Shown piece by piece: positions 2,762-6,803 of a stretch of DNA of 7,358 nt (positions are counted from its first letter, which is position 1; each line of letters begins with the position of its first letter). The translations under genes and the position numbers were made by a program. The notes beneath the pieces were generated by a model. The model saw nothing but the letters and a program-made list of their open reading frames with translations. It did no database searches and had not been told where the DNA came from. Source of the stretch: Trebonia sp. (GTDB lineage: Bacteria > Actinomycetota > Actinomycetes > Streptosporangiales > Streptosporangiaceae); assembly GCA_030038035.1 (NCBI GenBank), contig JASHPP010000552.1, positions 1 to 7,358 on the forward strand, given 5' to 3'.

Positions 2762-3577
2762 TCACACGGCCGGGACCGAGGCCAGGTGGTCCCTGGCGAA
2801 CGCCAGCGTCTCCGCCAGGTCCGCGAGCCGGTCGTCAACGGTCGCCGCGCGGCGGGTGTTCACCTCGGCGACCACCATGCCCCGATATCCGGTCGCCGCG
2901 ATCCCGCGCAGCAGTTCGGCGCAGGGCTGCCTGCCGCGGCCTGGCACCAGGTGCTCGTCGGGCACCGGGCCTACGGGCAGGCCGCTGCCGTCGGCCAGAT
3001 GGACGTGCGCCAGCCTGGTCCCGAGGGTATTCGCCATCACGATCGCGTCCGACCCCGAGGCCGCCGTGTGCGACAAGTCGAGCGTGACGTACGGGACGTC
3101 AAGGCCGGTGGGGTCCCAGTGCGGCGCATACCCGGAGACTTCGCTGGCGCCCGCCCGGATCGGGAACATGTTCTCCACGGCGAAGATCACGTTGGTCTCA
3201 TCCGCGATCTTCGCCAGCCCCCGCTCGAACCCGCGCGCGTACTCCCGCTGCCAGCGGAACGGGGGGTGCAACACGACGACCTTCGCGCCGAGCCGCTCGG
3301 CGAGCTCCTTGGCCCGCAGCAGCTTGCCCCACGGCTCCCTGCCCCACACGAGCTGGGTGAGCAGCAGGCTCGGCGTGTGGATGGCGAGCACCGGCACCTG
3401 GTGGTAGTCGACAAGCCTCGCCAGCGCGTCGCCGCTCTGGCTGACCGGGTCGCCGTACACCATGATCTCGATGCCGTCGTAACCGAGGCGAGCGGCTTCC
3501 GCGAAGGCATCGGGGGTGCGTTCGGGGTAGACAGACGAGGTGGACAGCGCGACGGGAATCGCGGGTAGCTCGGTCAC
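2762..3577 (-). CDS. Sugar phosphate isomerase/epimerase-fold TIM-barrel protein (Rv0498-like)
   Basis: A 271-residue protein of the xylose-isomerase-like / AP endonuclease family 2 barrel. Metal-ligand candidates occur in the expected order: E135 in V-E-N, D167 and H170 in L-D-L-S-H, H191/H193 in H-V-H-L-A-D, and E238 in V-A-E-V-N. Also present are L-S-T-S-S-V-Y-P near the start, [11 protein letters not shown] at 101-111, and D-G-S-G-L-P with E-H-L-V-P-G-R-G at 196-215. These closely match what I remember of M. tuberculosis Rv0498, whose reaction is not established to my knowledge. GTG 3577 is preceded by GGGAGGAG five bases upstream, the best ribosome binding site in the window. First gene of a likely operon with BKACE, divergent from radA. 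An isomerase or epimerase reaction is inferred from fold only. Confidence 0.9.
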
Positions 3578-3611
3578 CGCTTCTCCTCCCGCCGTGCTGT
3601 TGCCACAACCC

Positions 3612-3617
3612 AGCTTA
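3612..3617 (-). promoter_or_regulatory. Possible -10 element for the epimerase/BKACE operon
   Basis: On the minus strand TAAGCT fits TAnnnT and would start transcription near 3605, giving a leader of about 28 bases that holds the GGGAGGAG ribosome binding site. No convincing -35 is found at 16-18 bases; CTGACA lies 20 bases upstream. Weak, but it is the only candidate in the 88-bp divergent gap. Confidence 0.3.
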
Positions 3618-3636
3618 TGCGCGCGGCGCGGCCCGA

Positions 3637-3659
3637 ATGTCAGGGACCGCCGCTATGGT
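3637..3659 (+). promoter_or_regulatory. DNA-damage (RecA-NDp / PafBC-type) promoter of radA, leaderless
   Basis: The consensus I recall for RecA-independent damage-inducible promoters of mycobacteria is tTGTCRgtg-N8-TAnnnT. Here ATGTCAGGG (3637-3645) is followed by exactly eight bases (3646-3653) and TATGGT (3654-3659). The TGTCA core and -10 match fully; the mismatches are at weakly conserved positions one and eight. The A of the radA ATG (3666) is seven bases after the last T of the -10, so the mRNA is probably leaderless. M. tuberculosis radA is, from memory, among the genes carrying this motif. Confidence 0.75.
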
Positions 3660-3665
3660 GCCAGC

Positions 3666-5111
3666 ATGGCCAAGTCAACGGCAGGATTCCGCTGCGCCGA
3701 GTGCGGCTGGCAGACGCCGAAGTGGACCGGGCGATGCGGTGAGTGCCAGGCGTGGGGGACGGTCGAGGAGACGGCCGTGCCGCGGCTGGTGCGCGCGGGC
3801 ATCCGGCCGGCGGGCCACGCAGGCTCCTGGGCGCTCGGCCGCGGCGCCACCGGCGCCCCAGGGGCCCCAGGCGCCCCTGGCGGGCGGCTGGGCGGCGGCC
3901 CCGCGAGCACGGCGGCGATGCCGATCGGCAAGGTCGACGCGGCGCAGGCGAGCGCCCGGCCAACCGGCCTGGACGAGCTGGACCGGGTCCTTGGCGGCGG
4001 CCTAGTTCCAGGCGCGGTGCTGCTGCTGGCCGGCGAGCCCGGCGTCGGGAAGTCGACCCTGCTGCTTGAGGCCGGCGCCCTGCTGGCCGCGGCGGGACCG
4101 GTGCTCTACGTCACTGGCGAGGAGTCGGCCGCGCAGGTCCGGCTCCGCGCGGACCGGATCGGCGCGGTGCACGACAACCTGTACCTCGCCGCGGAAACGG
4201 ACCTGGATGCCATCATCGCCCACGTCGGAAACGTGCGGCCTCGGCTGCTGATCATCGACTCGGTGCAGACGATCGCGGCCGCCGACGTCGACGGCGTCCC
4301 CGGCGGCGTCACCCAGGTGCGCGAGGTCGCCGCGGTGCTGACCGCGGTGGCCAAGGACCAGGCGATGGCCACGATCCTGGTCGGCCATGTGACCAAGGAC
4401 GGCTCGGTGGCGGGGCCGCGCACCCTTGAGCACATCGTCGACGTGGTGCTGCACTTCGAGGGCGACCGGCACTCGCGGCTGCGGATGGTGCGGGCGGTCA
4501 AGAACAGGTACGGCCCGACCGACGAGGTCGGCTGCTTTGACCTCGGCGAGTACGGCCTGATCGGGCTCGCCGACCCCAGCGGGCTGTTCCTGTCCCGCCA
4601 CAGTGAGCCGGTACCTGGAACCTGCGTCACCGTGACCCTGGAGGGCCGCCGCCCGCTCCTCGCCGAAGTGCAGGCGCTGGTCACCGCGTCCGCGCTCGAC
4701 GTGCCGCGCAGGGTCACGTCCGGGCTCGATGCCTCCCGTGTCGGCATGGTGCTCGCGGTGCTGCAGCGCCGCACCGAATTGAAGCTCGCCAGGACCGACG
4801 TCTACGCCGCGACAGTCGGCGGGGTCCGGCTCACCGAGCCTTCCGTTGACCTGGCTGTGGCGCTGGCGCTGGCCAGCTCGACTGCCAACCTCGCGGTGCC
4901 GCAGGGCGTGGTCGCGGTCGGCGAGGTCGGCCTGGCCGGTGAGGTGCGCAACGTCGCGGGCGTGCCGCGGCGGCTCACCGAGGCGGAGCGGATGGGCTAC
5001 CGCAGGGCGATCGTGCCCGCGGGCTCGGCCGACGTCCAGGGCGGCGGAACCATGGAGGTCATCGAAGTGGACGATATCCGTGCGGCGCTGACAGCCGCCC
5101 TCCGCGGCTGA
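3666..5111 (+). CDS. radA: DNA repair protein RadA (Sms)
   Basis: A 481-residue RadA, a RecA-like ATPase that promotes branch migration and processing of recombination intermediates. The N-terminal zinc finger has C10, C13, C24 and C27. The ATPase core begins near 98, with Walker A G-E-P-G-V-G-K-S-T at 123-131 and a hydrophobic Walker B strand (L-L-I-I-D-S). The RadA-specific K-N-R-Y-G motif is at 279-283. The C-terminal Lon-protease-like domain contains G-E-V-G-L-A-G-E-V-R at 419-428. ATG 3666 is chosen because it directly precedes the zinc finger; upstream in-frame sequence is not RadA-like. No Shine-Dalgarno is present, in keeping with leaderless expression from the damage-type promoter. 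The linker between zinc finger and ATPase (about 44-95) is unusually rich in Gly, Ala and Pro, with three G-A-P triplets. disA, the usual downstream neighbour, is absent. Confidence 0.97.
   Translation: MAKSTAGFRCAECGWQTPKWTGRCGECQAWGTVEETAVPRLVRAGIRPAGHAGSWALGRGATGAPGAPGAPGGRLGGGPASTAAMPIGKVDAAQASARPTGLDELDRVLGGGLVPGAVLLLAGEPGVGKSTLLLEAGALLAAAGPVLYVTGEESAAQVRLRADRIGAVHDNLYLAAETDLDAIIAHVGNVRPRLLIIDSVQTIAAADVDGVPGGVTQVREVAAVLTAVAKDQAMATILVGHVTKDGSVAGPRTLEHIVDVVLHFEGDRHSRLRMVRAVKNRYGPTDEVGCFDLGEYGLIGLADPSGLFLSRHSEPVPGTCVTVTLEGRRPLLAEVQALVTASALDVPRRVTSGLDASRVGMVLAVLQRRTELKLARTDVYAATVGGVRLTEPSVDLAVALALASSTANLAVPQGVVAVGEVGLAGEVRNVAGVPRRLTEAERMGYRRAIVPAGSADVQGGGTMEVIEVDDIRAALTAALRG
3852..3878 (+). 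repeat. Three 9-bp units encoding a Gly-Ala-Pro repeat in RadA
   Basis: GGCGCCCCA, GGGGCCCCA and GGCGCCCCT are consecutive 9-bp units encoding (Gly-Ala-Pro)x3, RadA residues 63-71. The same DNA forms an 8-bp inverted repeat, CCAGGGGC (3858-3865) / GCCCCTGG (3873-3880), with a 7-base loop. Probably a slippage expansion in a flexible linker. Confidence 0.75.
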
Positions 5112-5147
5112 GGGCCCCCGCCGCCGATGTCACCGGGCACGGGCGGA

Positions 5148-5178
5148 GCTGGCAGCGCAGGAGCTTAACGCTGCTGGC
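5148..5178 (+). terminator. Probable radA terminator hairpin
   Basis: GCTGGCAGCG (5148-5157) pairs with CGCTGCTGGC (5169-5178) over 10 bp, two of them G-U, around an 11-base loop. It starts 37 bases after the radA stop. No U-tract follows. Confidence 0.5.
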
Positions 5179-5335
5179 CGGGCTGGACTGGCCCGCGCTC
5201 ATGGCGATCGCCTCGAACGTACCCCAGACGCCGGAGGCGAGCGGGCCCGCGCAGCCGGCCTCGCCTACCGCGCGACTCCAGGAGATGACCACGAGCCGCG
5301 GCACGCAGCCCGGCAGCGGCGTCCGACTCGCCGGG

Positions 5336-5341
5336 GATAAT
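5336..5341 (+). promoter_or_regulatory. Candidate -10 element of mutY
   Basis: GATAAT matches TATAAT at five of six positions and stands out in GC-rich surroundings. Seven bases follow before ATG 5349, so transcription would begin at or one base before that ATG. The alternative ATG at 5340 overlaps the element. No convincing -35 is visible. Confidence 0.45.
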
Positions 5342-5348
5342 GCCTGGC

Positions 5349-6632
5349 ATGGGATCGCCCTATTTCGAGCCGGTGCTGGCGTGGTATCCGGCGCACGCGC
5401 GCGACCTGCCGTGGCGCGCGCCGCGGGCAACCCCGTGGTCGGTTCTGGTCAGCGAGGTAATGCTGCAGCAGACGCCGGTGAGCCGGGTGCTGCCCGCCCA
5501 CCACGCCTGGCTCGCCAGGTGGCCGTCGGCCCCCGCGCTGGCAGCGGACCCGCCGGGCGAGGCGGTGCGGCAATGGGGCCGGCTCGGCTACCCGCGGCGC
5601 GCGCTGCGGCTGCACGCGACCGCCGCCATCGTGACGCAGCGGCACGGCGGGCAGATCCCGTCGTCCCGGGAGGAACTGCTCGCGCTGCCCGGGATCGGCG
5701 CCTACACCGCGGCGGCGGTGGCTGCCTTCGCCTTCGGCCGCCGGCACGCCGTGCTTGACACCAACGTGCGCCGCGTGCTTGCCCGGCTGGTGTCCGGGCG
5801 GCAGTTCCCCGGTCCGCGGCCGTCGGCGGCGGAGTACCGGCTCGCGGAATCGCTGCTGCCCGCCGACCCGGCCGTCGCGGCCCGCTGGTCGGTCGCCGTC
5901 ATGGAACTCGGCGCGCTCACCTGCACCGCGGCCCGGCCACGCTGCACCGACTGCCCGGTCGCGCCGCACTGCGCCTGGCTAGCCGCAGGCCAGCCCGCAT
6001 CGGCGTCGCAACGCCCTATTCAGCGCTACGAAGGCACCGACCGCCAGTGCCGCGGCAGGCTGCTGGCCCTGCTAAGGGAATCGCCGGGACCCGTGCTATC
6101 GCAGCACTTCGACGCCGTCTGGCCCGACAACGTCCAGCGCGCCCGGGCGCTCGACGGCCTGGTGTCCGACGGCCTAGTCGACCCGCTGCCGGACGGCAGC
6201 TTCGCGCTGCCCGCGTTACGCCTAGCGGATCCGAGAGTGCTGGTACGGCAGCCACCCATCGCCTCGGTCTCGGCCCATTCCCGTCCGTCACGCCAGCCCC
6301 TGCCGCTCGCCCTGCAGCGCCCGGCCGGGATAACGGGAAAGAAAATGCCACCCCTGGGGCGCGTCGTTTTGTTAGCCGGCCGTCCCGGGCGTGTCACGGA
6401 CCGGGCCGCTCCCGTCCTGCCCCGAATGCCCTGCTTTGCAAGATCACGCCCCCGGTGCCACCGGGCAGCCCCGGCACGCGGCCCACCAGGCCGGACCGGC
6501 CCGCCCGCACCGCATGCCACGATGACCGCCCAGACCTCGGCAGCGACCGGACGCCGAACCTGCCGCGCACCCATGCCGCAACCGGAGGGCAGGCATCCGG
6601 CAATGCCGGGTTACTCACCGACGCGTCCCTGA
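5349..6632 (+). CDS. mutY: A/G-specific adenine DNA glycosylase MutY, with aberrant C-terminal tail
   Basis: MutY removes adenine mispaired with 8-oxoguanine or guanine. Catalytic E36 is in S-E-V-M-L-Q-Q-T-P, and the helix-hairpin-helix L-P-G-I-G-A-Y-T-A starts at 113. The conserved Asp is D137 in L-D-T-N-V-R-R-V. The [4Fe-4S] ligands are C192, C199, C202 and C208 with the exact C-x6-C-x2-C-x5-C spacing. A winged-helix-like end, R-A-L-D-G-L-V-S-D-G-L-V then F-A-L-P, closes near residue 289, the usual end of actinobacterial MutY. The frame nevertheless runs about 138 codons further through Arg/Pro-rich, non-homologous sequence holding TTA, ATA and AGA codons. In the +1 frame a TAG lies at 6223-6225, where the gene would be expected to stop. 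The catalytic part looks intact. ATG 5349 is preferred over 5340 because of the -10 spacing; the difference is three residues. Confidence 0.93.
   Translation: MGSPYFEPVLAWYPAHARDLPWRAPRATPWSVLVSEVMLQQTPVSRVLPAHHAWLARWPSAPALAADPPGEAVRQWGRLGYPRRALRLHATAAIVTQRHGGQIPSSREELLALPGIGAYTAAAVAAFAFGRRHAVLDTNVRRVLARLVSGRQFPGPRPSAAEYRLAESLLPADPAVAARWSVAVMELGALTCTAARPRCTDCPVAPHCAWLAAGQPASASQRPIQRYEGTDRQCRGRLLALLRESPGPVLSQHFDAVWPDNVQRARALDGLVSDGLVDPLPDGSFALPALRLADPRVLVRQPPIASVSAHSRPSRQPLPLALQRPAGITGKKMPPLGRVVLLAGRPGRVTDRAAPVLPRMPCFARSRPRCHRAAPARGPPGRTGPPAPHATMTAQTSAATGRRTCRAPMPQPEGRHPAMPGYSPTRP
6451..6465. other. Short GC hairpin
   Basis: CCCGGT (6451-6456) pairs with ACCGGG (6460-6465) around the 3-base loop GCC. 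It lies within the anomalous mutY tail and is more typical of intergenic than coding DNA. Confidence 0.4.
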
Positions 6633-6646
6633 CCGGTCTTTTGTTT
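6631..6646 (+). terminator. Palindrome followed by a T-rich tract after the mutY frame
   Basis: GACCGGTC (6631-6638) is an 8-bp palindrome followed by TTTTGTTT (6639-6646). It is the only T-rich tract on + in this region and directly follows the mutY frame's stop. A true stem-loop is weak (ACCG 6617-6620 / CGGT 6634-6637), so this is only a candidate. Confidence 0.35.
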
Positions 6647-6663
6647 CCCGGTAATCGCCGTGT

Positions 6664-6702
6664 CCGGAATGCCCGGTTCCGGGATACCGGCATACCGGGC
6701 AT
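6664..6702. terminator. Two mutually exclusive hairpins, possible bidirectional terminator
   Basis: Hairpin one pairs CCGGAA (6664-6669) with TTCCGG (6677-6682). Hairpin two pairs ATGCCCGGT (6669-6677) with ACCGGGCAT (6694-6702) and can enclose a small CCGG/CCGG stem (6679-6682 / 6687-6690). They share 6669 and 6677-6682, so they cannot form together. ATACCGG is also directly repeated at 6684-6690 and 6692-6698. Lying between convergent genes, termination or mRNA end protection is plausible. Confidence 0.45.
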
Positions 6703-6734
6703 GTCGCATCGTCGGGCCGTCGGCTGGCATCGGC

Positions 6735-6753
6735 GCCGGGGACGCGCCCCGGC
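6735..6753 (-). terminator. Strong GC hairpin downstream of clpC
   Basis: GCCGGGG (6735-6741) and CCCCGGC (6747-6753) form a perfect 7-bp all-GC stem with a 5-base loop, about 50 bases beyond the clpC stop on minus. It could also act on mutY readthrough transcripts. No U-tract is present. Confidence 0.5.
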
Positions 6754-6803
6754 CGCGTGACAACGGAAAGCCGCAGCTCCAACCCGAATAGACGGCTGTC
6801 GTG

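Follow-up and report, generated by a model that had tools for sequence, protein, structure and literature searches.

A predicted PafBC-class, leaderless promoter before radA and its conservation across the class Actinomycetes

The promoter directly before radA in the stretch of DNA analysed here (7358 bp, referred to as the window) is very likely the main promoter of this gene and a member of the PafBC (RecA-NDp) class, by which radA would be switched on by DNA damage without cleavage of LexA and transcribed into a leaderless mRNA. This reading is based on the site itself, on its fixed geometry in relatives, on the association of the same motif with repair genes in one relative, on the presence of PafB in relatives, and on the lack of an SOS box in the window. 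The comparative tests in relatives support the assignment to PafBC, which stands as a prediction. Binding of PafBC, sensing of single-stranded DNA and induction at radA would follow by analogy to mycobacterial work, in which binding of single-stranded DNA and sigma adaptation were described as the mechanism of PafBC (PMC11804915). By this analogy, RNA polymerase containing SigmaA would read the -10 element TATGGT, with no usable -35 element. After DNA damage, single-stranded DNA would bind to the WYL domains of PafBC, and the activated heterodimer would insert between sigma region 4 and the DNA and read TGTCAG at -26 ('sigma adaptation'). The promoter would be turned on in this way with LexA uncleaved, and transcription would begin at or beside the A of the ATG. 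Induction of radA 'without LexA/RecA control', as it was put in the initial annotation, is likewise a prediction.

For this class of promoters, the consensus is tTGTCRgtg-N8-TAnnnT, the form that was also given in the initial annotation. In the window, positions 3637-3645 read ATGTCAGGG, followed by the 8-nt spacer ACCGCCGC at 3646-3653 and by TATGGT. All capital letters of the consensus are matched, and mismatches were identified at two lower-case positions alone, with a for t at base 1 and g for t at base 8. The agreement in core bases and spacing that had been claimed was thus confirmed, and its description as 'near-perfect' is fair. Two characteristics of the class, a TGTCR core at -26 and a TAnnnT -10 element located N11 after TGTCR, are present. 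The pattern TGTCR-N11-TAnnnT occurs a single time over the two strands of the window (3638-3659, plus strand), compared to a mean of 0.04 occurrences in the shuffled window, where at least one occurrence was found in 7 of 200 shuffles. A simple consensus scan of the region 3500-3750, which is a weak test for the lack of a canonical -35 element, found no sigma70-type site with two hexamers; a terminator was not found in the same region either. The features of the window are listed in Table 1.

Table 1. Coordinates and characteristics of the features in the window
Feature	Position	Strand	Remarks
M48-like peptidase gene, end		+	Leftmost gene of the window
DUF2516 gene, HTH gene, BKACE gene		-	In this order between the end of the M48-like peptidase gene and the TIM-barrel gene
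Xylose isomerase-like TIM-barrel protein	2762..3577	-	Divergent neighbour; PF01261
-26 element TGTCAG	3638..3643	+	PafBC-type recognition hexamer; sole pattern match in the window; conserved before radA
10-nt spacer	3644..3653	+	Equal length in the 62 exact loci (best 80 of 512), by the pattern used
-10 element TATGGT (TAnnnT)	3654..3659	+	Pattern match
Start codon of radA, also the predicted transcription start	3666..3668	+	Start codon 6-8 nt after the motif in 61 loci (of the best 80 of 512)
radA (DNA repair protein RadA/Sms), 481 aa	3666..5111	+	TIGR00416, 501 bits (cut-off 403)
mutY-like gene	5340 onward	+	193 bits, under the curated cut-off of 286.5
Clp ATPase gene, end		-	Rightmost gene of the window

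The initial annotation had placed the motif directly before a recombination-repair gene, and the downstream reading frame was indeed identified as RadA/Sms, with AAA_25, Zn ribbon and ChlI-like Pfam domains. A mycobacterial counterpart had also been proposed, and radA was named as part of the mycobacterial PafBC regulon (PMC8922275). Nothing connects the divergent TIM-barrel gene with the switch. Downstream of radA, the 430-aa mutY reading frame probably exceeds the true protein in length, since the TIGR01084 match spans residues 10-221 only; by eye, the tail of the frame enters GC-rich, repeat-like sequence at 6340-6760. The gene order radA-mutY-clp is present in the window, with the radA/mutY gap at 5112-5339, and also in the related loci L003 and L004, without disA after radA, and in L001 and L006 no DisA-like reading frame was found before clp. 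In a Nonomuraea locus (L017), a DisA-like frame is located directly 3' of radA. In seven genomes of close relatives, all of them MAGs with completeness not given, no match to the diadenylate cyclase domain PF02457 was obtained, compared to one match in each of two Nonomuraea genomes. Synthesis of c-di-AMP may have been lost in the lineage of the window and its close relatives.

The gap between the -10 element and the ATG of radA is 6 nt, a feature that is absent from the initial annotation. Since transcription usually starts about 7 nt after the -10 element, this spacing suggests that the radA mRNA begins at the ATG and is probably leaderless. Leaderless PafBC promoters are not claimed as unreported, because the terms 'leaderless' and 'PafBC' co-occur in published papers. 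What is added here is the predicted leaderless geometry at radA and the class-wide conservation of the motif before this gene, together with two side leads, the possible loss of disA and the joint divergence of PafB and the -26 element.

The conservation was followed in 80 radA loci, the best 80 of 512 relatives, which were chosen by RadA similarity alone, so that the upstream DNA was unselected. The closest of them are labelled Streptosporangiales, Streptosporangiaceae and Nocardiopsaceae. An exact motif within 150 nt upstream of radA was identified in 62 of these 80 loci, which are not independent, as many are from Nonomuraea or Arthrobacter and some pairs have near-identical upstream regions (for example, L074/L078 and L075/L079). 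Both strands of all 80 loci, 0.71 Mb in total, contain 63 exact matches, the one extra match being in L078. In 61 loci, an in-frame start codon follows the exact motif at 5-8 nt, with a gap of 7 nt in 38, 6 nt in 22 and 8 nt in one. The other loci of the set have one core mismatch (11 loci), two (5 loci), four (1 locus) or five (2 loci). The locus with four mismatches, L008, contains an exact motif about 78 nt before a GTG, and the two with five are L070, which is masked with N, and L071, which has CGTCGG-N10-TACGGT 62 nt upstream of an in-frame GTG. A leaderless GTG start in L071 was ruled out, as the GTG located upstream is not in frame. Among 2370 ATG/GTG triplets sampled elsewhere in the loci, there were no exact matches, 5 with one mismatch and 18 with two, in a comparison that is slightly uneven, with a mean of 2.0 (maximum 6) candidate starts per radA locus versus one per background triplet.

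For a second sample, 60 genomes were taken evenly across the class, including the genome from which the Nonomuraea locus L017 originates (G008). Here, the exact motif was present before radA in 44 of 60 genomes, 42 of them at leaderless spacing (gaps of 5-8 nt searched). In the remaining two, G069 and G088, the exact motif lies at a greater distance from the start, a GTG with GGAGG in front of it. One mismatch was found in 15 genomes, with CGTC in eight, AGTC in three, TGTCC in three and TGTGG in one, and two mismatches in a single genome (G053). Three genomes with a RadA start that we take to be Streptomyces-like (G063, G084 and G102) all contain the exact motif before radA.

In addition to radA, further genes with the motif were sought in relatives. 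In genome G001, which is from the closest of the relatives examined and is the source of locus L001, whose RadA is 83% identical over the best segment (among the best 80 of 512), this short pattern was matched 88 times, compared to 33 times for the reversed pattern, while in G004 the forward and reversed counts were about equal (107 versus 101). By counting from the list, 18 of the 88 matches in G001 share TGTCRGACCTA-N6-TAGGCT, which by eye forms the left arm of a dispersed, roughly palindromic repeat (for example, L196-L200); the copy in L196 reads TGTCGGTCCCC ... GGGGACCGACA, and its left arm fits the PafBC pattern. In view of these repeat copies and of the parity in G004, raw genome-wide counts are weak as proof, and the distance to start codons was therefore relied on. 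In G001, 63 of the 88 matches were examined, the remaining 25 including 14 repeat copies and radA itself. A coding-like start 4-9 nt downstream was found for 10 of these 63 matches, compared to none of 32 control rows, which were obtained by fetching 30 of 33 control places (two loci overlap). In N. jabiensis, the motif is located 4-8 nt before an ATG or GTG at 50 places, with one site counted twice, versus 9 places for the reversed pattern. Among 30 loci from these 50 places that were read by eye are radA and genes resembling uvrB and the genes of a UvrD-type helicase, of DNA polymerase I and of a DnaQ-type exonuclease.

Of 40 reading frames listed downstream of the matches in G001, 30 were scanned with Pfam. 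RecA, UvrA, UvrB, RecG, RecQ, SbcD, DnaX, a gyrase-B-type topoisomerase and an RNase-T/DnaQ-type exonuclease were identified, and further a sigma-70 factor with a SnoaL domain, a TfoX-domain protein, an Eco57I-type methylase, a mycothiol-S-transferase and a glutamate-cysteine ligase. Against the assignment to PafBC, many matches precede genes for which a link to repair is not evident, namely those for nucleoside diphosphate kinase, ribosomal protein S6, adenosine deaminase, an M20 peptidase, an MMPL transporter, a BldD-like protein, a CDP-alcohol transferase, a glyoxalase, a luciferase-like protein, DUF2786 and DUF4262 proteins and two OrfB transposon proteins. Three further proteins had no family match. 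Among the control rows, 14 had a coding-like start and 10 of those proteins were scanned; seven of the 10 were assigned to families without a role in repair (one was a DUF222 protein), and three had no match. The genes recG, recQ and sbcD have leaderless spacing, and the distance from motif to start is 130 nt for recA, 75 nt for uvrA, 69 nt for uvrB and 24 or 66 nt for dnaX. An association of the motif with repair genes, for which a genome-wide scan had been suggested in the initial annotation, was observed in this relative, with matches before recA, uvrA, uvrB, recG, recQ, sbcD, dnaX and the sigma factor gene. Before two OrfB/TnpB-type genes of G001 (L151 and L178), TGTCAGA-N9-TAACGT is located 30-37 nt upstream of a possible start, and these transposon genes might be damage-responsive.

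Damage control of repair genes is also exerted through the LexA SOS box of the GAAC-N4-GTTC type. It is extremely unlikely that LexA controls radA in the window, as in Corynebacterium glutamicum, and that the PafBC-type motif is incidental. An SOS analysis in C. glutamicum reported that radA is affected by LexA (PMC9960051), and among the best 80 of 512 loci the exact SOS box GAACGCACGTTC was identified upstream of radA in two from Cellulomonas (L039 and L050), compared to 3 of 2275 background segments. However, with up to one mismatch allowed, the box is absent from the whole window, and its exact form is missing from the other 78 of these 80 radA upstream regions, while it is present at the recA locus of G001. 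In both Cellulomonas loci, the box accompanies a PafBC-type motif before radA, so that dual control is possible there. A dual arrangement of SOS box and RecA-NDp promoter was described for mycobacterial recA (PMC8223512), and recA of G001 likewise has an SOS box upstream as well as the PafBC-type motif.

The presence of PafBC in the organism of the window is suggested by its relatives. Tandem WYL genes about 1 kb apart were found in seven of eight relatives, the exception being G005, and in each of the six that were fetched from these seven (those other than G004), a PafB-like start was read. PafB of G001 matched chain 7p5x_AY with an E-value of 4e-67 and fused PafBC (6sj9) with 5e-60. The chain is named 'Transcriptional regulator-like protein' and is taken by us for M. 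smegmatis PafB; the same entry contains a PafC chain. With a profile built from six proteins, from Streptosporangiales, the check for a PafB homologue proposed in the initial annotation gave matches in 37 of 38 genomes and in 57 of the 60 genomes of the class sample. Each of these 57 genomes had a match of 155 bits or more, the next WYL group reached at most 82 bits, and the second piece of a split PafB in G072 scored 117 bits. No match was obtained in G005, G060, G074 and G095, for which completeness is not given, and all four contain the exact motif before radA. Presence or absence of PafB versus the motif has no power as a test, as nearly all genomes contain both.

That the site is instead read by a different regulator, either ClgR or another WYL protein, for example SiwR, is considered very unlikely. 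The eight relatives contain 3-24 WYL domains each, SiwR also acts via the -26 region (PMC10693628), and a connection of ClgR with this P1 motif of M. smegmatis is discussed in PMC5656591. However, the SiwR promoter was described as a palindrome plus a GGA triplet at -26, not as TGTC (PMC10693628), and in a review the RecA-NDp motif was assigned to PafBC by mapping of binding sites in M. smegmatis (PMC8223512).

The divergence of PafB is regarded as a lead rather than a result. In nine of 38 genomes, PafB scored below 200 bits, and all nine have a changed -26 core before radA; among the 19 exact-motif genomes of the 38 with a PafB match, none scored below 230 bits. These numbers represent few independent events, and with a profile built from Streptosporangiales distance alone lowers the scores. 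The PafB start reads AEKLVSLTYAL in the Paeniglutamicibacter loci L038, L053, L061 and L075 and in the Arthrobacter-labelled L059 and L079, and the related TEKLVSLTYAL in L042, compared to TERLL in others. In L040, PafB is split across two frames, and in L056 it is strongly diverged. The DNA-binding end of PafB (L271-L277) and the -26 element of radA were observed to diverge together in L038, L042, L053, L059, L061, L075 and L079, while the -10 element and the spacing stay. Against this co-divergence, the first T of TGTC is lost by a change of one base in L071 and L044, despite an ordinary PafB (521 and 231 bits).

In all 16 loci with one or two mismatches (of the best 80 of 512), TA...T is kept and all changes lie within TGTCR. 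Both the -10 element and its spacing from the ATG are thus maintained when TGTCR is changed, and basal promoter function therefore seems to be selected by itself. This is consistent with a common constitutive sigmaA promoter whose spacer contains a conserved motif, where radA is a housekeeping gene to which PafBC adds little, as are the four genomes with an exact radA motif and no PafB match. Such a promoter is nevertheless very unlikely, since no sigma70-type site with two hexamers was found in the region 3500-3750, and the TGTCR core is common to recA, uvrA, uvrB, recG, recQ and sbcD in G001. The changed -26 core in all nine genomes with low-scoring PafB also argues against it, in genomes that are not phylogenetically independent. 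With PafBC as the preferred regulator, it may tentatively be proposed that membership of radA in the PafBC regulon is ancestral and near-obligatory in the whole class Actinomycetes, nearly always with a leaderless promoter, that regulator and -26 element co-evolve, and that in Paeniglutamicibacter and relatives the code was rewired or control was lost. Natural divergence of PafB and the -26 element would help to decode how PafBC reads DNA.

In the literature, TGTCGG, TGTCAG or TGTCAC followed by N10-TAnnnT were given as forms of the PafBC motif in M. tuberculosis (PMC8151990), and RecA-NDp promoters were said to reach other Actinobacteria (PMC8223512). A search for literature combining RecA-NDp and radA found none. 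For Streptomyces venezuelae, no conservation of the PafBC motif of M. smegmatis was reported in 2022 from an initial motif search (PMC9380542), a statement that has now become testable by seeking TGTCR-N11-TAnnnT 6-8 nt before start codons. For S. coelicolor, a list of genes with TGTCAGT motifs published in 2008 includes radA (PMC2375139), the source in which a relevant occurrence of the word TTGTCAGTGGC was found. This SIGffRid set has the same core and includes homologues of radA, recQ, uvrB, dinP, priA and dinG. In contrast to the site described here, it is a prediction by word statistics that allows a looser spacing, and PafBC is not named in the passage presenting it (PMC2375139).

The closest likeness is to the RecA-NDp promoters of Mycobacterium (recA P1, uvrA and radA), which share TGTCR-N11-TAnnnT with a -26 plus a -10 element and are located before recombination and repair genes. 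The window differs in belonging to another group of Actinomycetota and in having mutY instead of disA after radA, and may differ in its 6-nt gap, which predicts a leaderless mRNA. The radA promoter in the window is a well-conserved further instance of an already known promoter class, by which the mycobacterial DNA-damage circuit and its geometry are extended to radA over a whole bacterial class.
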